NCBI RefSeq assembly: GCF_030068605.1
Contig: NZ_JASJOU010000004.1
Span: 372,001 to 436,000, forward strand
DNA from: Xanthocytophaga agilis
Lineage (GTDB): Bacteria > Bacteroidota > Bacteroidia > Cytophagales > 172606-1
Reading direction: 5' to 3'
DNA length: 64,000 nucleotides
In this document: positions 45,786 to 61,138 of the stretch, piece by piece
Numbering within the stretch: the first letter of the stretch is position 1
How the letters are laid out: each line of letters begins with the position of its first letter
The notes under the pieces: model-generated
The model's database searches: none
What the model saw: the letters and a program-made list of their open reading frames with translations, nothing else
What the model was told of the DNA's origin: nothing
Program-made: the position numbers and the translations under genes

Positions 45786-45895
45786 GGTGTATCTGTGTAA
45801 GTATGTAATTTCTTAATCAAGACAAGGCTACAACCTTATCTTGTCCATATCTTTTATGGAAAAGTGGTTTGTAAATAAAGAAAAAACACTATTTC

Positions 45896-46009
45896 TGTCC
45901 TCCTGTAAGGATCTCGTGACAAATAGAGCCATGTTGAGTTTTTGAGAGAAAAATATATCTCCAGTCGGAAAGGCCGCCAGTCTTGTCACAAGATTCTTTC
46001 AGGAGGACA
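45896..46009. repeat. Palindromic interspersed repeat, copy B
   Basis: 114 bp with 27-bp inverted ends (45896-45922 and 45983-46009), three mismatches. The arm ends are TGTCCTCC/GGAGGACA where other copies have TGTCCTTC/GAAGGACA, a paired change on both arms. The core is in the same orientation as in copies A and C. Confidence 0.85.
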
Positions 46010-46178
46010 AAAAAGAGAGGTTTTTACTAAAACCTTCAAAATTGAAAAAGTTATGGAACAGGATAAGAGCTACAACTCGCATAGATAAGATTATGAAATA
46101 CAGTAATGTATAAAGGAGAAATAAACATAATTGAAGTAACCGCTGCATTTACCCACAAGCTAGCCATCATCAACAAAA

Positions 46179-48226: not shown

Positions 48227-48613
48227 TTAGGCAAATTGCAATACCGCTTCCAGGCGTGCTTCATATTTCTTTCGGTGGACTGCTTTATCGGGGAGGCAGC
48301 CATCGTTGTAGAGATAGAAACATCTGTCCTCTTCAAAAGATAGTCCCTTGCTGGTTGGTTGAAAACCTGCTTTGTCTTTGAAGAAAGGTGTGAGTTTTTG
48401 TATTTCCTCTTTCGAAATCTCAAGGCGATAGCGTGCTTGTTTGCGTATGAGGTCTCTCCATTCCTCATAGGGTATGCGGCTCTGGCGTTCTCCTAGTGGG
48501 AGGTAATAGCGGTTAAACTCATAGGCATAGCCGTCTATCAGCAGAAAGCCATAAATGTGATCTCTTCTGCGAATCTTAATTTTGTCGTCTTTGCGAGTGT
48601 AAGTCCTTGTCAT
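48227..48613 (-). CDS. Unknown protein of the phage-like island
   Basis: 128 residues, very basic, rich in Arg/Lys/Tyr (MTRTYTRKDDKIKIRRRDHI, RIPYEEWRDLIRKQARYRL). Last gene of the island. Not recognised; a nucleic-acid-binding role would fit the charge but is a guess. Confidence 0.65.
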   Translation of the reverse strand: MTRTYTRKDDKIKIRRRDHIYGFLLIDGYAYEFNRYYLPLGERQSRIPYEEWRDLIRKQARYRLEISKEEIQKLTPFFKDKAGFQPTSKGLSFEEDRCFYLYNDGCLPDKAVHRKKYEARLEAVLQFA

Positions 48614-48625
48614 CGTACTATTGGT

Positions 48626-49132
48626 TTACTGTGTTACATGATTATTAGCTGGTACTGAGCCTCTCCATTCAATGTTGTGTTCGGGAATGCCTGCCTGTTT
48701 GAGCCAGGTTGGGACAAAGAAGCTGGGACAGGCTTTGTTGGCAAATTGGTTATGTCCGGCAATTTTTACATGAGGGGCGTAGGTAAGCACCTCATGAATA
48801 ATGGCTAACATCGTTTCGATTTGCTGAAGGGTACGTGTGTCTTCCGGTTTTAAAGTTTTGTCCAGACCGCCTACATAGCATAGATGGCGGGAGATAGAGT
48901 TGATGCCTGTTACACCATTGGTGATCTCGAACGAGTCTATAATCTGATCATTGTTGTGTTTAATGAACTGGTGACGGGAGCCATCAAGCAGGATCAGGTC
49001 AGAGTAGCCGACTTGTTTCCAGCCGTTGCCGTAGGGGTTGGGTGCAGTGTGCCAACGTTTGACGTCTTCTGGCGAAACCCAGCGTCCGGCAGGAGTGGCG
49101 GTACAGTGAATGATCAGGTATTGAAAGTGCAT
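48626..49132 (-). CDS. N-acetylmuramoyl-L-alanine amidase (phage-type endolysin)
   Basis: 168 residues, an amidase_2 domain of the T7-lysozyme type: first zinc His in IIHCTATPAG, then GYSDLILLDGSRH, ITNGVTGINSIS, and HNQFANKACPSFFVP with the second His and the Cys ligand. It cleaves the bond between N-acetylmuramate and L-alanine in peptidoglycan. No signal peptide, as expected for a phage endolysin that needs a holin; a small membrane protein is encoded at 49544. Confidence 0.88.
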   Translation of the reverse strand: MHFQYLIIHCTATPAGRWVSPEDVKRWHTAPNPYGNGWKQVGYSDLILLDGSRHQFIKHNNDQIIDSFEITNGVTGINSISRHLCYVGGLDKTLKPEDTRTLQQIETMLAIIHEVLTYAPHVKIAGHNQFANKACPSFFVPTWLKQAGIPEHNIEWRGSVPANNHVTQ

Positions 49133-49234
49133 AGGCTTGTAGTTAGAGAATAGTTATCTTATAGTATCACCAACCTGAATGGTGGGAAACAAGTCGTTGG
49201 TGAGAACACGCAACGACGGGAAATGGAATAGTGG

Positions 49235-49498
49235 TTAAGCTGATGGCAGGTTGTTGAGTGTCTCCTTCAGCTCGGTGACTTCTGTATGCAATACCTCGTT
49301 TTCGCCTTCCAGCTCCTCGATTCGCTCTCTGAGTGTTTCCATTTCCATCTCTTGGTTACTAAGCCTATACTGAAGGTGTAGGTTTTCGTTTTCAAGCCGT
49401 TTTTTCTCGGAAGCCAGGTGATCGTTGGCAAGGGTAAGGTTTTTCATAAGCAACTTTTGGTCAAGAGCTGATATATTGGAAGCAGAGGTAGCAGACAT
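49235..49498 (-). CDS. Small coiled-coil protein
   Basis: 87 residues, almost entirely a leucine-rich coiled coil (LANDHLASEKKRLENENLHL, RERIEELEGENEVLHTEVTE). Small proteins like this act as oligomerisation scaffolds. It lies between the amidase and the holin-sized gene. No family name. Confidence 0.68.
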   Translation of the reverse strand: MSATSASNISALDQKLLMKNLTLANDHLASEKKRLENENLHLQYRLSNQEMEMETLRERIEELEGENEVLHTEVTELKETLNNLPSA

Positions 49499-49543
49499 AG
49501 AAACAAGCTGTGTTTTGGTGGTTTAGATTGTGAATGAGTAACG

Positions 49544-49729
49544 TTATTTGGGGTCTCTCATGGAGAAGAAACCGACTGTTGAAATAAAGGCTAGCAGCGA
49601 AACGAACGATTGTGTGTCGATGCGATTCATCAGCCAGAGAATGTATCCTGAGAAGGTAAATAAACCCAGGGTTGAGGTTTTCCAGTTGTCTAACACAAAC
49701 TGGAGGTAATCGTATATTGATTTTGCCAT
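49544..49729 (-). CDS. Small membrane protein, holin candidate
   Basis: 61 residues from the ATG at 49729 (MAKSIYDYLQFVLDNWKTST); the frame extends further upstream but there it runs into a palindromic repeat and is not coding. Two hydrophobic segments (TLGLFTFSGYILWLMNRI and SFVSLLAFISTVGFFSM) span the membrane. Size, topology and neighbouring endolysin suggest a holin or a phage-related membrane helper. Confidence 0.62.
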   Translation of the reverse strand: MAKSIYDYLQFVLDNWKTSTLGLFTFSGYILWLMNRIDTQSFVSLLAFISTVGFFSMRDPK

Positions 49730-49782
49730 AGGGGTTATTTGGGTTAAATACACTTCCACTGTCCTTCTAAAAGCTCTTTCCC

Positions 49783-49891
49783 TGTCCTTCTGAAAGAATC
49801 TTGTGACAAATAGAGCCTTGTTTGTTTTGTGAAAAAAACACTCCAAAAGGAAAGGCCGCCGGTCTTGTCACAAGATTCTTTCAGAAGGACA
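49783..49891. repeat. Palindromic interspersed repeat, copy C (inside the island)
   Basis: 109 bp with perfect 27-bp inverted ends (49783-49809 and 49865-49891). A partial extra arm (TGTCCTTCTAAAAGCTCTTT, about 49760-49779) sits beside it. It lies between the holin-like gene and the gene at 49971, so the family is also present in the phage-like island. Confidence 0.88.
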
Positions 49892-49970
49892 AAAAAGAAG
49901 AGTGTTTTTGTGGAGAAGAGAAATAGAGACAGTCTCTTATATTGACCTCTTCTGTACCAACTTTAGCCAT

Positions 49971-50225
49971 TTACGGCCCTTTACACGTATCCACAATCTG
50001 AAAAACAGGTGCATAGGTAAAGCTCTTCACATGTTTGATCTTTTCTACATCTAATGGCTGAATTGGGTGGGAGACTACCTGTCTGGCTACGATGGACTCT
50101 ATCTGGCTGTAGTCAATCACCTCGCATTCGTATACCTCAGATGGATTAAGTCTATGCTCTATAAAGACTCCAATAGCCAGACCGAAGACGAAACACAGGG
50201 CGCTTAATAAAAGTCGTAGTTGCAT
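49971..50225 (-). CDS. Small membrane-anchored protein
   Basis: 84 residues with one N-terminal membrane helix (LLLSALCFVFGLAIGVFI) and a short outside domain ending in VDTCKGP. Its size and position near the amidase recall phage lysis accessory (spanin-like) proteins, but no defining motif is seen. Confidence 0.6.
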   Translation of the reverse strand: MQLRLLLSALCFVFGLAIGVFIEHRLNPSEVYECEVIDYSQIESIVARQVVSHPIQPLDVEKIKHVKSFTYAPVFQIVDTCKGP

Positions 50226-50362
50226 AATTTGTATGTATGGTTAGAAAGTGGATAAGGGAATTGGAGCAGGCATCTTTCGCAAAAAAAGAAACAGTAAACT
50301 AAAAGTCTACTGCTTCTCCAGTTAGTATTTCTCGTTTTAATCCTTACTTTTTGCTACCTGGA

Positions 50363-50779
50363 TTAGGCGGGTAGCGTCGCCTTGTGGGTGGTGATAGTCG
50401 ACATCGAACCATCCACTACTGATAACCGTTGCTCGATCTCATCCAGCTGCGATTCATAGAGCACTACCGCCGTTGTACCGTATTGCTGCTTGCGCTGCTG
50501 TGCTGTAAAGAGCTTGTATTCCGCTTTTACTTTGCGGTTTTCCATTTCGGTTTTGGTCGTACCTTCCGGCAATACGGCGATGATGGATGTAAGTGAATCT
50601 ACTTCAGCTTCAGAGGAGGCTAAGGTAGCTTCGATGTCAGAGGCCCGGTCAGCAGCATTTTCACGGCTACGAGTCAGGGAGATCTGCTTGAACTCCAGAT
50701 CGCTTTTGAGGTCTGAAAGTTGGTCAAGGACTTTGTCACAGTCTGTTCTTGAGGTTAATAATGTTAAAGTTAATGCCAT
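50363..50779 (-). CDS. Unknown helical protein of the island
   Basis: 138 residues from the ATG at 50779 (MALTLTLLTSRTDCDKVLDQ). Long amphipathic helices (LDQLSDLKSDLEFKQISL, NRKVKAEYKLFTAQQRKQQY) predict a coiled-coil bundle. No homology recognised. Upstream, between 50780 and 50972, lies GC-richer sequence without a gene. Confidence 0.65.
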   Translation of the reverse strand: MALTLTLLTSRTDCDKVLDQLSDLKSDLEFKQISLTRSRENAADRASDIEATLASSEAEVDSLTSIIAVLPEGTTKTEMENRKVKAEYKLFTAQQRKQQYGTTAVVLYESQLDEIEQRLSVVDGSMSTITTHKATLPA

Positions 50780-50972
50780 AGCTTTGTTTGGTTGATGGAA
50801 AATGTGAGTATACAAAGGGTCAGGAGAGTGGGGCTTTGGGTTGTGCTGCTGTCAAGGTTCCGGATCGCTTGCAGGCAGAGAGGTAAGCCCCTTTTCTGAC
50901 CGATTTAGTGATACAAAGGTCGGCATTATCCAAACGCCAGTCCAACCGTACTTGCGATAATCGCAACTACGT

Positions 50973-51248
50973 TTATGGTTGGTTTTCAGTGGTTTGTAGT
51001 GTGTTTTTGCGTTTGTTGCCAGAAGGGCGAATGGGTTCGCCTTCTCCGGTGATCAACCAGTTCAGATCTGTGTGAAAAGTGGTTTGTAGCGACCACAGGA
51101 AAAAGCAGGAGGGCAGCGAACGTCCCTTTTCCAGCGAGGACAGATTGCCTTGTGCCGTTCCGGTACGTTGAGCAAACTCCCATTGGGGTATTTGCAGGAT
51201 TTCTACCCGTAAATGATAAATACGTTGGCCGATATGTTGTAAACTCAT
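50973..51248 (-). CDS. XRE-family HTH protein (possible island repressor)
   Basis: 91 residues from the ATG at 51248 (MSLQHIGQRIYHLRVEI). The HTH_3 fold is clear: IPQWEFAQRTGTAQGNLSSL, EKGRSLPSCFFLWSLQ, TDLNWLITGEGEP. This is the typical lambda-cI/Cro-like N-terminal domain without a cleavage domain. It may repress the island, for example at the operator near 55840. Confidence 0.82.
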   Translation of the reverse strand: MSLQHIGQRIYHLRVEILQIPQWEFAQRTGTAQGNLSSLEKGRSLPSCFFLWSLQTTFHTDLNWLITGEGEPIRPSGNKRKNTLQTTENQP

Positions 51249-51300
51249 CGTGATCAAAGGGTTAGTAGCGTTTGTAGGATTCGTAGGGTTTGAAAGGTTT

Positions 51301-51500
51301 TTAACCTGTATGCCAGTTATCGAAAAGAGCAACCGGAGTTCCAGTTATCCAGAGAAACAACTGCAACTCCGGTTATATAAAAACCTAATTGGAGTCACAG
51401 TCGTTTTGCTGCTTAACCTGTATACAGGTTAGGGGTGAGCAAGAGTCAACACTGCAACCGGAGTTACGGTTGGTTTCAGAAATAACCTGGATACAGGTTG
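51301..51500. repeat. Short repeats and a 16-bp palindrome at the nuclease gene end
   Basis: ACCGGAGTT occurs at about 51332 and 51453, and its complement AACTCCGGT at about 51366. AACCTGTATACAGGTT (51416-51431) is a perfect 16-bp palindrome, with near-copies AACCTGGATACAGGTT (51485-51500) and AACCTGTATGCCAGTT (51303-51318). Part of this lies in the C-terminus of the nuclease gene, where it encodes two TCIQV blocks. Confidence 0.65.
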
Positions 51501-51882
51501 CCTGATGCCTGCTTACTGGATGATTGCAGTGTGTATGAATACCCTCTATCAGGTGCTGAAACTCTTCCAGACTGCGCACAATCTGGTAAGAACCTCCCTG
51601 TGATTCTACCAGTTTCTGAAACTGCTTTTGTTCAGAGGTTTGATACCCTACAAGGTTTTTGAGTTCAATAAAGTAGCTTTTGCCTGCAAAGAAGTATTCC
51701 AGGTCAGATACGCCTTTCACTATCCCTAAAGCTTTGTTTAAAGCACCTTTGATGGCATTATGGCTGTTGTTGTTATGGGTATGTAGTAATCCTCTGTAAG
51801 CAGGAAACGTATTCCAGTGCCATTGAAAGCATAAAGCTTGGATACGGGTTTCGGACGGTTGTATGGGAGTAGTCTGTTGCAT
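51385..51882 (-). CDS. VRR-NUC endonuclease
   Basis: 165 residues with the VRR-NUC (PD-(D/E)xK) fold: GVSDLEYFFAGKSYFIELKN carries the Asp and the E-x-K, followed by GYQTSEQKQFQKLVESQGGS and YQIVRSLEEFQHLI. VRR-NUC nucleases are common in phages and act on branched or structured DNA. The last 45 residues are a repeated, low-complexity tail (ATCIQVISETN, LTCIQVKQQN). Its position next to a large palindrome invites a role in processing that DNA. Confidence 0.85.
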   Translation of the reverse strand: MQQTTPIQPSETRIQALCFQWHWNTFPAYRGLLHTHNNNSHNAIKGALNKALGIVKGVSDLEYFFAGKSYFIELKNLVGYQTSEQKQFQKLVESQGGSYQIVRSLEEFQHLIEGIHTHCNHPVSRHQATCIQVISETNRNSGCSVDSCSPLTCIQVKQQNDCDSN

Positions 51883-51934
51883 GAATAAGAGTTGTAAACA
51901 GGTTTTGAAATCATATATGAAAGTAAAGTCAGAT

Positions 51935-51976
51935 GCTGGTTCAAAGTTGGCTCAAAGCTGGTGCAAGTTGACTCAT
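51935..51976. repeat. Four iteron-like 10-11 bp direct repeats
   Basis: Head-to-tail units GCTGGTTCAAA (51935-51945), GTTGGCTCAAA (51946-51956), GCTGGTGCAA (51957-51966) and GTTGACTCAT (51967-51976), consensus G(C/T)TGG(C/T)TCAAA. The period of one helical turn and the neighbouring palindrome and ATPase gene fit replication-initiator binding sites. Confidence 0.55.
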
Positions 51977-51986
51977 TTGTTCGTAA

Positions 51987-52042
51987 GGTGGGTTGGTGCA
52001 TATATACCCCCCTATAAGGGGGTATATATGCACCAACCCACC
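51987..52042. repeat. Perfect 25-bp inverted repeat, possible replication origin
   Basis: Arms at 51987-52011 and 52018-52042 are exactly complementary (25 bp), with loop CTATAA. Each arm holds GGTTGGTGCATATATACCCC or its complement. It lies in the gap between the ATPase gene (ends 52080) and the nuclease gene (starts 51882). It could extrude as a cruciform, act as an origin, or serve as a strong transcript barrier. Confidence 0.8.
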
Positions 52043-52079
52043 CTATGAACTAACAACATCATTGAACCAATAAGTAGTG

Positions 52080-53255
52080 TCAGTCAGTAGAACTGGTTAA
52101 GTAATACATGCCTGTGTTACGTTCACCTTCCAGGCGGATATAGCCAAATTCAACTGCTTCGCTAATCAGGCGCTTTACCTTACTTTCATTCTGAGCAGAC
52201 ACTTCCAGTAACAGTCGCTTAAAGTCAGCTGAGGGAATCTGGGTACTCATCTGGCGGGTAAATACCTGATGAATTACTTCTTTTAGCTTGATGGTATTTC
52301 CGTTTTTAGAAACCTGAGGTTGTGCTGCGGACACGAAAAAGTGATGTCTGGCATCCCACTTGAAATATTGCTCTACTGGCAAATGACTATGGGATAGTTT
52401 GCCCATATCAAAGTCAGAAGTCAGTTGACGCATGCCATCGGCCTGCTCCATCATCTGAAGCAGTAAGAACGCCCGGCTATACCGATGCAGAAACGAGCCA
52501 AAATGACCTGCTGCTGTGGTGGTGTTTTTGTTGGGATGAAGTGTACAGATGATAGCCAGATTAAATTCTGAGGCCAGTTTTCTGATCCATCGAACCACCA
52601 GAACCGCATCCTTTGAGTCATTCATGTCGGTGGTCAGATCCAGGCAACCATCCAGTATCAGGTAGTCAAAGGGTGCTCCCTGTTTAAGTGATTCTGTCAG
52701 TAGAAGCCGTATCTCACTGCGTTTTTGCTCAGCGGTTTCCAGTTCAAGCATGGAGCGTACCTCTACATTGCGAAAACGGTTATTGCGGATTAACGACTCA
52801 TTGATAGAAACCCTTTTGAGCGTTCGTCCCAGTGAACAGGCCACATCATCTAATGGGCGTTCAAAATCGATGAATAATCCGCGACTGTCAGCGGTAGCTG
52901 CCGGATAATGAAAATCTACCAGACTGTGCGGATAGGGAGTGTTCGTCACATGGCAGATAAAGCCTGCCATTAGATCTTCAATCAAATTGGATTTTCCTGA
53001 GCCAGGAGCGCCAATTACAGTAACAAACTCGCCTTTGTTTATCAGCTTGCTTTCTCCGATGCTTAGTGCAGGTTTGGTGTTGCGTACCTGATAGGCTAAG
53101 GTTATCTCAATACTTTGTTTAACAGCAGCGGTAGAATGTGTAAATTCGTTTCTGAATTCATTTTTGCTGTTAAATTGTCCGTTTATCTGCCCAGAAAACT
53201 GTTGCATTTGTTCATTACGAAATTGAGATACCCGGCGTGAAAATTCGTCTTGCAT
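52080..53255 (-). CDS. AAA_25 replication ATPase (RepA/DnaB-like)
   Basis: 391 residues. Walker A is VIGAPGSGKSNLIEDL, Walker B FDYLILDGCLDLTTDMND, with later sensor LAIICTLHPNKNTTTAAG; this is the RecA-like AAA_25 domain of phage and plasmid replicative ATPases. A winged-helix end follows (SKVKRLISEAVEFGYIRLEG). It probably loads or acts as a helicase for the island. The frame begins with a Gln-rich N-terminus (about 45 residues). The possible origin lies directly downstream. Confidence 0.85.
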   Translation of the reverse strand: MQDEFSRRVSQFRNEQMQQFSGQINGQFNSKNEFRNEFTHSTAAVKQSIEITLAYQVRNTKPALSIGESKLINKGEFVTVIGAPGSGKSNLIEDLMAGFICHVTNTPYPHSLVDFHYPAATADSRGLFIDFERPLDDVACSLGRTLKRVSINESLIRNNRFRNVEVRSMLELETAEQKRSEIRLLLTESLKQGAPFDYLILDGCLDLTTDMNDSKDAVLVVRWIRKLASEFNLAIICTLHPNKNTTTAAGHFGSFLHRYSRAFLLLQMMEQADGMRQLTSDFDMGKLSHSHLPVEQYFKWDARHHFFVSAAQPQVSKNGNTIKLKEVIHQVFTRQMSTQIPSADFKRLLLEVSAQNESKVKRLISEAVEFGYIRLEGERNTGMYYLTSSTD

Positions 53256-53327
53256 AAAGAAAAAAAGAAAATGAAAAGTGGTGTTAGATTGGAAAAAAGG
53301 TACTGTATTGAAAGTTTATAAATTGTA

Positions 53328-53747
53328 TTAAAAAGGGACGGTTTGCTGTTGTTCATAGTAAGTGAGCAGCATATCCATCAGCGTTTCATTAGCCTCGTCC
53401 AGTGACTGATTATGCCGCTTAAGAGCATCATTGGCAATCCATAGTTTTTGGTAATGTTTGATCTGTAAAGGAGCATACAACAACTGCTCACATAAGCACT
53501 GGATAGTCAGTTCACTGACCTGGATAAACTGGACAAGTACATCGAAATCAGCCTGGATAGCAGTATACCGGCGAAAGGCTTTTTCATCGTGCATAAAGTC
53601 CGCTTGTTGTGATTTGTTGAGTTGTTCCAGCTTGTCGAGTGCTTTTTTCTTGATCAGTTTCAATACCCTGTTAAAGTCATCTACAGCCAGTTGAGCTGCC
53701 AGTGGCAAACTATACTCAGACTGCTTTTTCTTCGATGAGTGGCTCAT
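53328..53747 (-). CDS. Small helical protein translationally coupled to the helicase
   Basis: 139 residues from the ATG at 53747 (MSHSSKKKQSEYSLPLAAQL). Its ATG overlaps the TGA of the helicase gene (ATGA), and AAAGGAGG stands 7 bases before it, a strong Shine-Dalgarno, unusual in this window. The protein is helical and Gln/Lys-rich (QCLCEQLLYAPLQIKHYQKL). Probably a partner of the helicase; family unknown. Confidence 0.75.
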   Translation of the reverse strand: MSHSSKKKQSEYSLPLAAQLAVDDFNRVLKLIKKKALDKLEQLNKSQQADFMHDEKAFRRYTAIQADFDVLVQFIQVSELTIQCLCEQLLYAPLQIKHYQKLWIANDALKRHNQSLDEANETLMDMLLTYYEQQQTVPF

Positions 53748-55336
53748 CGTTTGCCTCCTTTCGGGGCTGTTTTTCGGGTAGAGATACCTGCCGCTTTCAG
53801 CGTATAATCTACCCAGTGCGATTGGTAGCCACGCAGTCGGGCAAACTCTTCGAGCATCGGACGGGGATTTTCCCGCTTGAGGATACAGCTGATAATCCAC
53901 TGGACAGGGTATTGTTTGCGTTTATTTTTCGGATCACCCATTGATGCCCGCATAATCAGTTCGATGACATTCATTGTATGCCATTCTTTCTGCATCAGAT
54001 AGGTCCAGTCTACCACAATTTCCTGTGTTTCTACCTCATACACATACGTTCCATTCACTAATTTGCGCTTAAAGGTATGCTGGCAATAGGGACAGGTTTG
54101 CGTGCTCAGCGCTACAATAGACTGACACTCCGGACACGACTTGACAGGTGCATGCTGAAGCACTGCTGCATAACCATTGCGGAAAATAGATTCCCAGTTA
54201 TAGGGTTCATGCCAAAAGCCTAACTCTCTGATATTGTTACCCATGTCTATAATGATAAACTCCTCCTTGGTGGCTGTCGTACGTGATCCGCGTCCACACA
54301 TTTGCAGATAGAGAGACAATGAACGGGTAGCCCGGTTTAAGACAATACACTCTATCGTTGGCTCATCAAAGCCCGTAGTCAGAATACCACAGTTCACCAG
54401 AATGGCATCAGGCGTATGAGCAAACCACTGCAGTGTTGCGTGACGTTCATCAGTCGGGGTGTCTGAAGTGATGTATCTGACCTGGTCATGTACTTGCAGG
54501 AAGGCTTGGGTAGTGCGCAGTGTATGTAGCTTGTTCACACAAAAGATCACCGTCTTTTTACCTTCCGCATGCTTTTGCCAGTTGGAAACACACCCCTGAT
54601 ACAGGGCCGGTTTGTCAAAGTCGGCATAGAGTTCATTGATTTTATAGTCCCCATCAAACGCTCTACCCGCTTTAATCTCCATAGGGACAGCAAAATAACG
54701 TGGCAACGCCAGATGTCCTGCTTCGATCAGGCTATGAATCTGAGTTCCGACTACAATGTCATTAAAGTAGGTGTTTAAGGGAATTCGCTTACTGGCAGAC
54801 AGGGGAGTAGCCGTAGCGCCTACAATAGGCGTATCCGGATGCAGCTGGATTACTTTCCGGAAATTACCTTTGTGCGCTTCGTCTATAATGAGTAGCTTAA
54901 GATCCGGTAATGACCAGCCTTTCTGTACTCTCCGGTAATAGGTCTCTGCCATTGCCACTATTACCTGTGTAGTTGGCATCTGTTTGCTGCTGGCATCTAC
55001 TATACCAGCCTGCAATCCGGATCGTTCCAATGTAGCTGCCGCCTGATGCAATAGTTCCATGCGATCCACCAGGATCAATACACGTGCCTCAGGTGTTGTC
55101 TCTAACGTACGCCGTGTCATCTCCGCAAAGGTGACCGTCTTACCGGCTCCCGTAGGCAGGCACAAGATCAGACGACTGGCACCGGATTGGTGCCGTCTGG
55201 TCAGTTCTGTAATACTACTTTCCTGATAATCCCGTAAGGAGAAAGCTTGCTTGTTTTTAGGCAACTCACTGGCTGGTAAGGGCAAAGCTTCGCCATTCAC
55301 GCTAGTGGCGTGAGTCAAATTATCCGTTTGTTGCAT
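53744..55336 (-). CDS. DEAH-box superfamily 2 helicase
   Basis: 530 residues with all SF2 motifs: Q/Ia region, I (LPTGAGKTVTF), II (LLIIDEAHKGN), III (VGATATP), V/VI (TTGFDEPTIE, QMCGRGSRT). A C-terminal zinc ribbon (CPECQSIVALSTQTCPYC) follows the helicase core. It matches phage and plasmid DNA helicases of the type III restriction/SSL2 group. It is the first large gene after the HTH_17 regulator, 3 bp downstream of it. Confidence 0.9.
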   Translation of the reverse strand: MQQTDNLTHATSVNGEALPLPASELPKNKQAFSLRDYQESSITELTRRHQSGASRLILCLPTGAGKTVTFAEMTRRTLETTPEARVLILVDRMELLHQAAATLERSGLQAGIVDASSKQMPTTQVIVAMAETYYRRVQKGWSLPDLKLLIIDEAHKGNFRKVIQLHPDTPIVGATATPLSASKRIPLNTYFNDIVVGTQIHSLIEAGHLALPRYFAVPMEIKAGRAFDGDYKINELYADFDKPALYQGCVSNWQKHAEGKKTVIFCVNKLHTLRTTQAFLQVHDQVRYITSDTPTDERHATLQWFAHTPDAILVNCGILTTGFDEPTIECIVLNRATRSLSLYLQMCGRGSRTTATKEEFIIIDMGNNIRELGFWHEPYNWESIFRNGYAAVLQHAPVKSCPECQSIVALSTQTCPYCQHTFKRKLVNGTYVYEVETQEIVVDWTYLMQKEWHTMNVIELIMRASMGDPKNKRKQYPVQWIISCILKRENPRPMLEEFARLRGYQSHWVDYTLKAAGISTRKTAPKGGKR

Positions 55337-55339
55337 CGA

Positions 55340-55705
55340 TTAGCGGGTTGAGGTAGCTAGCAGATTAGAAGTTTGCGACTGATGAGTTTGCGACAGATGG
55401 CGTTGGATTTCTTCCTCCATTTCCTGAAGGGTTTTGTGCTTGCCATCCTTGATCCATTGGTAAAGGTCACGGGAGCTGAAGTAGAGCTTTTTGCGCTGCT
55501 TCATAAAAGGGATGAGTCCATCGGCAGCCAGATGATAAATGGTCGATTTAGCCAGGCCTGTAATTTCCATAGCCAGCTCTATTCCGCCCAGGCGTTCATT
55601 GTCCTGTAATAGGTCGGATACTTGTGAGAGATTGGGTCTGATGTCAGACAATAGGATTTCAATGCGTGATAAACAGCTGATAACTTCTTTGTAGGAAGTG
55701 TGCAT
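55340..55705 (-). CDS. HTH_17 (excisionase-like) DNA-binding protein
   Basis: 121 residues. The MerR-like HTH_17 fold is visible: RLGGIELAMEITGLAKSTIY, HLAADGLIPFMKQRKKLYFS, RDLYQWIKDGKHK. Bacteroidota mobile elements often carry such a gene just upstream of their helicase, where it serves as excisionase or master regulator. It is the first gene of the island and its control region faces the operator at 55840-55862. Confidence 0.87.
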   Translation of the reverse strand: MHTSYKEVISCLSRIEILLSDIRPNLSQVSDLLQDNERLGGIELAMEITGLAKSTIYHLAADGLIPFMKQRKKLYFSSRDLYQWIKDGKHKTLQEMEEEIQRHLSQTHQSQTSNLLATSTR

Positions 55706-56639: not shown

Positions 56640-57190
56640 CAATACAGAATGCGATTTTGCCTTAAAATCGCTCTCATGTGTTCTAAAAGCGTGAGAGAGG
56701 GTAGATTTGACCAGCAATAGGGCATTAGAGGCATAAAATGTAGGGGCGATTGGCAGATCGCCCTGGTTCCATACACGAATGCTCAGGTTTATCAGACAAC
56801 TATTTCGGATTGATCCCATGCTGTACCTGTGGGAAACAGGGCGACTGCCAGTCGCCCCTACATTCCTGTGTTGGATTACAAATCCAAATAGTACCTACAC
56901 GAAATCAGCGTCCTACGGAATCTGATTAAACCAAATGTTCGGATGTCCAAAAACCGAAAAACGTCGATTCCTAAACCGCCTGAGAATGGCGTATACGCGT
57001 TCTGGGTCAGGATTTCTCTCAAATACGCGATTCTAGCGCGTTTCAGGTTATATATTTTTTTAGGGGTCTGGGCGATTTGGCTCAGAAATGCGATTTAAGG
57101 CATGAAAGATCGTTTATAAGCCATTTTTCGTTACGAGTCGATTAATAGTTCCGAAACATAGCAAAATCGCTCTAAAGGCTTCTAATGGTC
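56640..57190. other. Non-coding stretch with many small palindromes
   Basis: No gene is visible from 56152 to 57389. The stretch holds GCGATTTT-GCCTT-AAAATCGC (56651-56671), the REP-like element (56737-56864), the palindrome GCGTATACGC (56989-56998), and AAAATCGCTCT twice (about 56664 and 57163). These repeated GCGATTT/AAATCGC pieces suggest decayed repeats rather than a protein gene. Confidence 0.5.
56737..56864. repeat. REP/MITE-like element with 28-bp inverted ends
   Basis: The ends are 56737-56765 (AATGTAGGGGCGATTGGCAG...) and 56837-56864, whose complement reads AATGTAGGGGCGACTGGCAG... . Each end is itself a small hairpin (GGGCGACT...AGTCGCCC). Similar GTAGGGGCGA palindromes are widely scattered in bacterial genomes as mobile repeats. 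Confidence 0.75.
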
Positions 57191-57389
57191 TGTAATGCCT
57201 TTTAAAAAGCAAGGGTAGGAGAAAGCTTGTTTTTGAGTGATTTTTGTTATGTGCTGATTTTCAGTGTATTATATTTTTGGCTTTTTTGCTTTGGAAAATA
57301 TGCTTTTTGAGTTGATAATTTTTTACAAAATCATCTTATAAAAAACGGAAGAAATGACTATTTTTAAGAGTTAAATCATTTCTTTCTGT

Positions 57390-60595: not shown

Positions 60596-60797
60596 AGGAG
60601 TGCCGTTTGGTGATTAGTTATACAGAGCTATAGGGCTTATCTTGTCTTATATCTTTTTCATTTAAGGGGTTTAAGGAAAAATTTCTTTTCTCACTCTTTT
60701 ACCCTTTTTTATTCTTATCAAGAAAGTGTCCTTTCTCTTCCGATTTCCTTTTTATCCTCTTGAAAGTAGCAACCTTCTGTATCTCCTTCATTCGTTC

Positions 60798-60915
60798 TTT
60801 GTCCTTCTGAAAGAACCTTGTGACAAGACCGGCGGCCTTTCCGACTGGAGATATATTTTTCTCTCAAAAACTAAACATGGCTCTATTTGTCACAAGGTTC
60901 TTTCAGAAGGACAAA
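60798..60915. repeat. Palindromic interspersed repeat, copy D
   Basis: 118 bp with perfect 29-bp inverted ends (60798-60826 and 60887-60915) and the core in the opposite orientation to copies A-C. The arms carry AACCTTG/CAAGGTT where others have AATCTTG/CAAGATT, a paired change. The 540-bp gap 60596-61138 contains nothing else that I can name. Confidence 0.88.
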
Positions 60916-61138
60916 AAGAGGAAAGCGGGTGTTTTTTTGTTTGCAGAATTCATTTTCAGGAAAGATATGGAACACAATGAATTATATATTGTCTAAATAG
61001 ACTTAGATAGTAAAAAAAGAAGAATTACTAAAAAATGGAAATTCTGGTCTTCTTTTAGATATGTCCTATCTAATTCTTTCCGCGTGTTTTGCTACCTTGG
61101 TTGCATACAAATAGTGAGAGAGAAAGAGACATTAATAT

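Follow-up and report, generated by a model that had tools for sequence, protein, structure and literature searches.

The window analysed here is a stretch of 64,000 nucleotides (contig C4, positions 372001-436000) from a 9.77 Mb Xanthocytophaga genome, G000, which we compared with the genome of a sister species, G001. Between 48227 and 55705 of this window, the open reading frame (ORF) list holds twelve ORFs, all on the minus strand, and these represent one member of a phage-derived island family, and not a lone decayed prophage. The initial annotation had already grouped them into one co-oriented block, and this grouping stands. GC content is 0.436-0.459 over most of the block, 0.33-0.38 just beside it, and up to 0.48 elsewhere in the window. 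The DNA that the window copy has in common with other copies extends beyond 55705, to about 57.2-57.5 kb, and the likely starts of four genes (53747, about 51248, 50779, and 49729) differ from the ORF list. Copies in G000 are named by contig (C8b, for instance, is the same as G0C8b), and copies in G001 carry the prefix G1C; G1C22 is the ortholog of the window copy. In the direction of transcription, the features are:

56961-57200, minus strand: conserved non-coding block with iteron-like AATCG/CGATT words, a candidate origin or regulator-binding region; eight copies, 81-100% DNA identity
56028-56145, minus strand: RNA-like block located upstream of the replication operon, with three hairpins, of which the final one is a terminator that ends in a T-run; fold z -2.4
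55340-55705, minus strand: HTH_17 protein, an AlpA-type regulator or excisionase-like protein, 121 residues; PF12728 over cut-off, Phage_AlpA just under it, phrog_66 (excisionase and regulator) 6e-5
53744-55336, minus strand: DEAH helicase, 530 residues; PF04851 2e-21, phrog_16 (DNA helicase) 2e-78
53328-53747, minus strand: 139-residue protein with no assigned role; homologs in G1C22, G1C18, and G1C2b, partial in G0C16
52080-53255, minus strand: AAA_25 ATPase, probably RepA/DnaB-like; PF13481 over cut-off
51385-51882, minus strand: nuclease, probably of the PD-(D/E)XK/VRR type, 165 residues
50973-51248, minus strand: XRE regulator (probable start), its 3' end forming the edge of the cargo slot; XRE 3'-end remnants occur in sibling cargoes
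50944-50973, minus strand: palindrome directly at the XRE stop codon, marking the empty cargo slot; probable operator or terminator
50363-50779, minus strand: cc138, a three-helix coiled-coil protein and the hallmark of the family; 25 matches in the two genomes
49971-50225, minus strand: 84-residue protein with an N-terminal hydrophobic segment, possibly spanin-like by its position; kept in many copies, no family match of weight
49544-49729, minus strand: 61-residue holin-like membrane protein; 90-100% identical where full-length, and 80% in G1C44, which has a partial copy
49235-49498, minus strand: 87-residue coiled-coil protein, found in a subset of copies
48626-49132, minus strand: Amidase_2 endolysin-type protein, its stop codon forming the right edge of the family-wide core; phrog_822 4e-41, Bacteroides phage amidase 49%
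48227-48613, minus strand: 128-residue protein with no assigned role, present at three mapped loci (window, G1C22, and G0C16, in the last beside XRE)

Four of the gene labels in the initial annotation passed their Pfam cut-offs: HTH_17 (32.3 versus 27 bits), AAA_25 (34.3 versus 27 bits), the amidase (Amidase_2, PF01510, 27.3 versus 26 bits), and the helicase (ResIII/DEAD). The nuclease has no Pfam VRR-NUC match, and its label is carried by PHROGs matches (phrog_824 5e-26, phrog_93 endonuclease 1e-8, and phrog_5702 resolvase 7e-8). The XRE regulator fell below the Pfam cut-off (HTH_19, 21.3 of 30.2 bits) and matched phrog_8 at 1.5e-9. The holin label derives from the size of the protein and its two hydrophobic stretches, while only a sub-threshold Pfam match (MASE6), no PHROG, and no credible match in the phage search were found for it. 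In the amidase, residues H9, Y43, H127, K133, and C135 are kept in all 16 aligned copies (16 of the 31 matches were used, and two intact ones were also left out), a pattern that fits an active site of the T7-lysozyme type. The nearest relatives of the window helicase (34%) and of the VapE primase of the sibling copy C8a (31%) in the phage collection come from Cellulophaga and Flavobacterium phages (phi18:1, phi46:1, mumin, and mymlan); these are phages, whereas the islands showed no virion gene. The viral searches returned no relative of the AAA_25 protein. In the window, the Rfam scan gave no family at its cut-off, and the tRNA scan gave no tRNA.

Four or more of the window's twelve genes recur together at 10 loci in G000 and 12 loci in G001, out of 15 and 14 mapped segments, respectively. 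Since the genes co-occur in 22 loci, a chance grouping is excluded, and the possibility that in relatives they belong to separate loci falls away. Full-length helicase matches number five in G000 and six in G001, the remaining matches being distant helicases, and the AAA_25 protein has four and six matches, with a weak partial match in 2 of the other 57 genomes searched. The matches to cc138 (13 in G000 and 12 in G001) and to the amidase (15 and 16) are more numerous, and neither protein had a match in six further members of the genus or family, one of which is only 72% complete. The consensus gene order is HTH_17, helicase, replication gene, nuclease, XRE, slot, cc138, 84-residue protein, holin-like protein, in some copies the 87-residue coiled-coil protein, and amidase; many loci lack at least one of these genes. 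The genes from HTH_17 to XRE make up a left, operon-like row behind the RNA-like block, and those from cc138 to the amidase a right row, which follows a palindrome in most copies. The replication gene is of three kinds. The place of AAA_25 is taken in C29, C6, C8a, C8b, G1C5, G1C61, and G1C62a by a BT4734/PriCT_2/VapE-type primase-helicase of about 730 residues (PF05272 2e-30 in a sibling), and in C1, C4c, G1C29, and partly G1C44 by a pair of uncharacterised proteins of about 411-470 and 347 residues, which their position suggests to be replication proteins.

The slot between XRE and cc138 differs in length from copy to copy. Thirteen of the 21 loci with both genes have a gap of 2-19 kb; in the others it is about 1 kb (two loci) or about 0.2 kb (six loci, among them the window copy). 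Slot contents differ between the members of the orthologous pairs C8a/G1C5, C16/G1C2b, window/G1C22, and C29/G1C62a; an exception is C10/G1C33, in which a slot of 11-12 kb with ordinary-looking genes is largely kept. Several cargoes are defence genes. The C8b slot holds an McrB-like AAA_5 protein and McrC (Pfam McrBC 2e-60), of which PADLOC calls the first a type II enzyme and the second nothing. PADLOC identified a type IV restriction enzyme (1e-233), HNH, and PDC-S26 in C16; further slots hold Vsr, a cytosine methyltransferase, MzaB, MzaD, and MzaE (G1C2b), Hachiman HamA (5e-109) and HamB (7e-247) (G1C5), and a CBASS cyclase with an E2 part (2e-117) and a phospholipase effector (2e-96) (G1C44). 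The C8a slot has an AriA/PtuA-like ATPase alone, tentatively counted as a defence gene, and the G1C22 slot appears to encode a Dyp-peroxidase-like protein, which PADLOC did not match. A recognised defence system is thus present in 5 of the 13 filled slots, or 6 with C8a; the per-protein PADLOC search covered 20 ORFs and the pooled scan listed 25 of 220 families, and the remaining slots may hold defence genes as well. Across the siblings, a fixed slot carries variable defence genes, as in a defence hotspot, and in the window copy itself this slot is empty.

The junction of slot and XRE gene carries possible traces of earlier insertions. In five of the six compact copies, the palindrome upstream of cc138 begins at the XRE stop codon, and in C29 it begins ~40 bases later. 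In filled copies, additional XRE 3'-end fragments occur within the cargo or at its far edge; G1C5 has four of them, and G1C62a, G1C29, G1C44, and C16 have one each (counting those at an expect value (E) of 3e-4 or better; weaker ones were omitted). In G1C62a, the displaced XRE end abuts the cc138 palindrome, and the intact XRE has another 3' end. Judged from these sequences, the remnants suggest repeated insertion at one point, with the old gene end displaced each time. No PF00589 integrase match lies inside any slot of the two genomes. A RAYT-like transposase ORF is present inside the G1C5 slot, and two transposase rows are among the PHROG rows of sibling ORFs; cargo may be loaded by site-specific as well as homologous routes.

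The initial annotation had also stressed the absence of capsid, terminase, tail, and integrase genes from the block, and indeed none was found above threshold with Pfam or PHROGs. The window block thus lacks the capsid, terminase, and tail genes of a temperate phage and, as in the general definition of a phage satellite outlined in PMC13376191, has no virion gene above threshold, together with regulation and replication genes of its own (HTH_17, XRE, helicase, and AAA_25). Two sub-threshold matches speak against an absence of virion genes, one of AAA_25 to phrog_2666, a terminase large subunit (0.0015, P-loop stretch only), and one of the 139-residue protein to a tail-assembly-chaperone family (0.037); these were taken as P-loop and chance matches. 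Among the non-core ORFs of the siblings, 50 of 59 PHROG rows (1e-5) were listed and none carried a head, packaging, or tail label, with no search aimed at packaging genes or cos/pac sites; two scans covered 102 of 182 such ORFs (at least 120 residues, one per cluster, leaving out one cluster and four ORFs spanning fetch borders), and many rows have no described function. Structural genes just outside the block found no support either: the terminase large subunit (TerL) family PF03354 had no match in either genome, in a search that matches only 3 of 14 control genomes, and phrog_2, unnamed in the search output and which we take to be the terminase large subunit, gave only three weak partial matches (1e-5 to 1e-7).

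The orthologous copies allowed us to follow selection. Flanking DNA paired nine orthologous sites of G000 and G001, with an identity of roughly 90-99% and, for some sites, a match on a single flank; between the window and G1C22, the flanks are 97.1 and 94.7% identical and the element about 89%. The ratio of nonsynonymous to synonymous substitution rates (dN/dS) was 0.00-0.32, mostly below 0.15, in the 65 defined of 68 gene comparisons (codons with stops were skipped, and 10 of the 68 come from the non-orthologous pair G0C4b/G1C18), and of the three undefined comparisons, hol61 of C20/G1C44 looks decayed. The core genes are under purifying selection. This bears on the possibility, put forward by the initial annotation, that the block is a decayed prophage, i.e., an ordinary temperate phage minus its head and tail genes. 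Its phage-like gene content and the truncation of some copies would fit such an origin, but the same layout is present in 22 loci, the core genes are not decaying, the sibling PHROG rows lack head, packaging, and tail labels, and defence cargo fills the space between replication and lysis genes. Moreover, a search of 50,697 phage records at E 0.01 and a pattern-based scan of viral contigs gave no match to cc138. We therefore regard a decayed prophage as improbable.

The copies also appear to exchange parts. The window helicase is 98% identical to that of its ortholog G1C22 and 81% to that of G1C18, whereas the window XRE is 51% identical to that of G1C22 (over 74 residues) and 100% to those of G1C18, G1C55, and C4a. 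By these identities, the window copy is a mosaic, with homologous exchange between copies as the simplest account. At G0C4a, G0C4b, G1C22, and G1C55, the flanks of two G000 islands meet at one G001 site, as expected from a chromosome rearrangement via recombination between island copies.

Evidence for integration comes from one sibling, G0C8b, which has a tyrosine-type integrase of 451 residues (C8:294523-295878) on the same strand, about 220 bases upstream of its RNA block. A 47-base tRNA-Met 3' half at C8:295917-295963 recurs with one mismatch at C8:258288-258334, and intact tRNA-Met genes at G000:C2 and G001:C11 contain the variant with the mismatch. The two C8 repeats enclose 37.6 kb, which comprises the C8b island and other genes. 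An intact tRNA-Met is present at neither end, and therefore the insertion target was already a fragment, or a rearrangement followed the insertion; a scan of 49 loci found no intact tRNA at an island end, the one tRNA-Cys not being at an end. Within the 37.6 kb, 7.8 kb has no long match in G001. This segment was rejected as an empty-site test, as it lies inside the island. In a second such comparison, the G1C18 flank aligned with dispersed fragments of G000. Next to the left repeat, and abutting it, L183:6425-8209 (G000:C8:256.4-258.2 kb) carries a tRNA-Pro and, after it, a second integrase with an HTH_17-like ORF, by its arrangement possibly a nested or tandem element. In G001, a distant AAA_25 relative (34%) likewise adjoins an integrase.

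An integrase together with attL/attR-like end repeats was found only for G0C8b. On the window contig, the nearest integrase match is about 190 kb from the window copy, and the direct attachment (att) repeats for which the initial annotation had proposed to look did not turn up: around the window copy there are only a dispersed ~115-base repeat and short chance matches. This repeat, at 45.9 and 60.8 kb and mainly inverted, was rejected as att sites. It has inverted ends (TTGTCCTTCTGAAAGAACC...), occurs in the window at 45844-46014, 49765-49900, and 60789-60971, and has 69 matches in the 1.01 Mb of mapped segments of both genomes. ORFs that we read as RAYT-like transposases lie near some islands.

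A tyrosine integrase with tRNA-derived repeats in G0C8b, replication genes of its own, and an AlpA-like regulator are also what one would expect of an integrative mobilizable element, or of a plasmid-like one, that spreads by conjugation. The endolysin-type cassette, which is under selection, would be hard to account for in such an element, and no relaxase is among the Pfam and PHROG rows of the window genes, with no search aimed at relaxases made; we consider conjugative transfer very improbable.

The regulatory DNA of the islands is conserved as well. A block of ~120 bases upstream of HTH_17, ending in a hairpin and a T-run, is present in all 14 copies in which BLAST matches the HTH_17 protein of the window. 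A model built from nine copies and run over 69 loci (1.36 Mb) gave as its best 14 matches these nine and five others (group A), the latter at E 0.0002 to 0.06, four of them weakly (0.02-0.06), with the next match at 0.25. Six blocks folded singly gave z values of -2.5 to -0.7. In the nine group B blocks, 91.5% of cells pair, and covariation is modest, as 2 pairs changed on both sides, a number reached by 69 of 500 shuffles, and the score was reached by 17 of 500. Read by hand, the main stem keeps its pairing between the window and G1C22 through three two-sided changes, which the stored alignment hides since a row is shifted and most stem cells fail. MAFFT with RNAalifold over all 14 blocks gave no structure because the two groups misalign. 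Upstream of cc138, a palindrome of at least 10 pairs is present in 17 of 21 copies, being absent in C6, G1C61, and G1C22 and imperfect in C10; its arms differ between groups and remain complementary, and the three palindromes folded gave z values of -5.2 (window), -6.8, and -8.0 (two siblings). The block at 56961-57200 has 6 AATCG/CGATT words in the window against 1.25 in shuffles, of which 1 in 300 was as high, and is word-rich in 7 of 8 copies, the C4a copy not being enriched (23 of 300 shuffles). The ~120-base block may act as a regulatory RNA or attenuator, the palindrome, less surely, as an operator or terminator, and the block at 56961-57200, least surely, as an origin.

Taken together, we consider it probable, with some reserve, that the block belongs to a family of integrative islands that derive from phages, lack virion genes, are satellite-like, and carry their own lysis cassette of amidase and holin-like genes. 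The window copy itself is best read as an integrase-less, cargo-empty member of this family. It is not assigned to any satellite family, because the integrase and att test failed, and works like a satellite or like a stranded relative of one. Several observations count against an island family of this kind. PF00589 has 11 matches in each genome, and only 1 of the 22 loci, G0C8b, has an adjacent integrase; without a TerL match, no resident helper is visible, and helper, excision, and packaging would be supposed steps. The nine sites common to both species suit vertical inheritance as well as mobility. Some copies are broken (the G1C55 amidase is in pieces, and C4a and C8d are truncated), and the loci with the third replication type have no match to the RNA-block model. 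Finally, phage satellites are said in the pertinent part of PMC11389934 to have no means of lysing the cell, whereas the islands described here have lysis-type genes.

Some of this would also be explained if the islands were ancient phage remnants fixed in the genus, immobile, and kept as regulated docking sites for defence genes, perhaps with suicide lysis. The orthologous sites in two species, the strong purifying selection, the integrase beside only one locus, and the defence cargo in the slots all agree with such a domesticated scaffold. Against it, G0C8b has an integrase and att-like repeats, and the part of its island without a long match in the sister genome makes it look like a newer insertion; in addition, replication genes, unneeded by a static scaffold, are kept and swapped between copies. 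We consider a scaffold of this type rather unlikely.

If the block belongs to a family of satellite-like islands, its life cycle might be as follows. The RNA block and XRE would keep both gene rows off, and an incoming phage or another signal would release them. The AlpA-like protein and an integrase, supplied in cis or from a sibling, would excise the island, the helicase and the ATPase or primase would replicate it, the amidase cassette would assist lysis, and a helper virion or recombination would move it. Copies without an integrase could persist as useful docking sites, exchanging parts by recombination. A bolder reading, which we hold to be less likely than not, is that these islands represent a new satellite class of Bacteroidota with its own lysis cassette and about a dozen members per genome, in which groups of copies are insulated by their own RNA stem and operator palindrome, and the XRE 3' end is the dock where defence cassettes stack and trade.

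Known elements resemble these islands in part. With PICI and PICMI elements they have in common an AlpA-type regulator, a replication gene (the VapE primase in siblings), no virion genes seen, and, in G0C8b, an integrase and att-like repeats. They differ in their Bacteroidota host, in having at least 10 loci per genome and their own amidase and holin-like genes, and in that most have no integrase. The PICMI core is described in the relevant part of PMC10803314 as int/alpA/prim, with int, alpA, and a DUF3987/DUF5906 primase together; the window copy has HTH_17, no integrase nearby, and AAA_25 for the primase. That satellites can harbour defence hotspots is known from P2/P4 of E. coli, as the pertinent part of PMC9122126 reports, and, as far as the corresponding sections of PMC9122126 and PMC8628076 go, P4-like satellites likewise are without a full virion of their own and have a slot of variable defence genes. 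The islands differ from these in that their slot is at the XRE 3' end and lysis-type genes are present; no search aimed at P4 genes was made. The core genes of P4 are psu, sid, delta, and alpha, and the RNA-like block upstream of the island replication genes resembles, by analogy, the P4 CI RNA. In defence islands, too, genes for restriction, CBASS, Hachiman, and Mza lie clustered on the chromosome, but here they occupy a single fixed position within a recurring chassis that has replication genes of its own. We found no report on such elements in Xanthocytophaga in the one open-licence library searched. Here, one Bacteroidota genus has at least 10 related virion-less islands per genome, kept by selection and equipped with the lysis-type genes that satellites, in the passage mentioned above, are said to lack, and successive cargo insertions at a single point seem legible in their sequences. 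This raises the questions of how defence genes load into the chassis and how many related elements avoid mutual exclusion in one cell.

The hallmark protein cc138 is spread beyond the two species. Its structural model is a confident three-helix coiled coil (predicted local distance difference test 91.9), and a fold search gave no match at E 0.001. Among 72,556 plasmids, likewise, none matched the protein at E 0.01. A profile from 20 of the 25 matches found relatives in 34 of 390 genomes of the host's order, including the two Xanthocytophaga genomes. An XRE-like protein lies at most 1 kb upstream on the same strand at 8 of 15 such cc138 loci, one of the eight being the query's own locus, and the window XRE as query matches none of those XRE-like proteins. 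XRE and cc138 may thus be an old unit into which the slot opened. In family f12 of the order (L163-L177), XRE-like and cc138-like genes lie close together, with up to five cc138 relatives per genome, some of which adjoin methyltransferase or restriction-like genes. Elsewhere in the window, visual inspection of the ORF listing suggests a series of regulators and of genes resembling those for polysaccharide degradation at 8894-33047.

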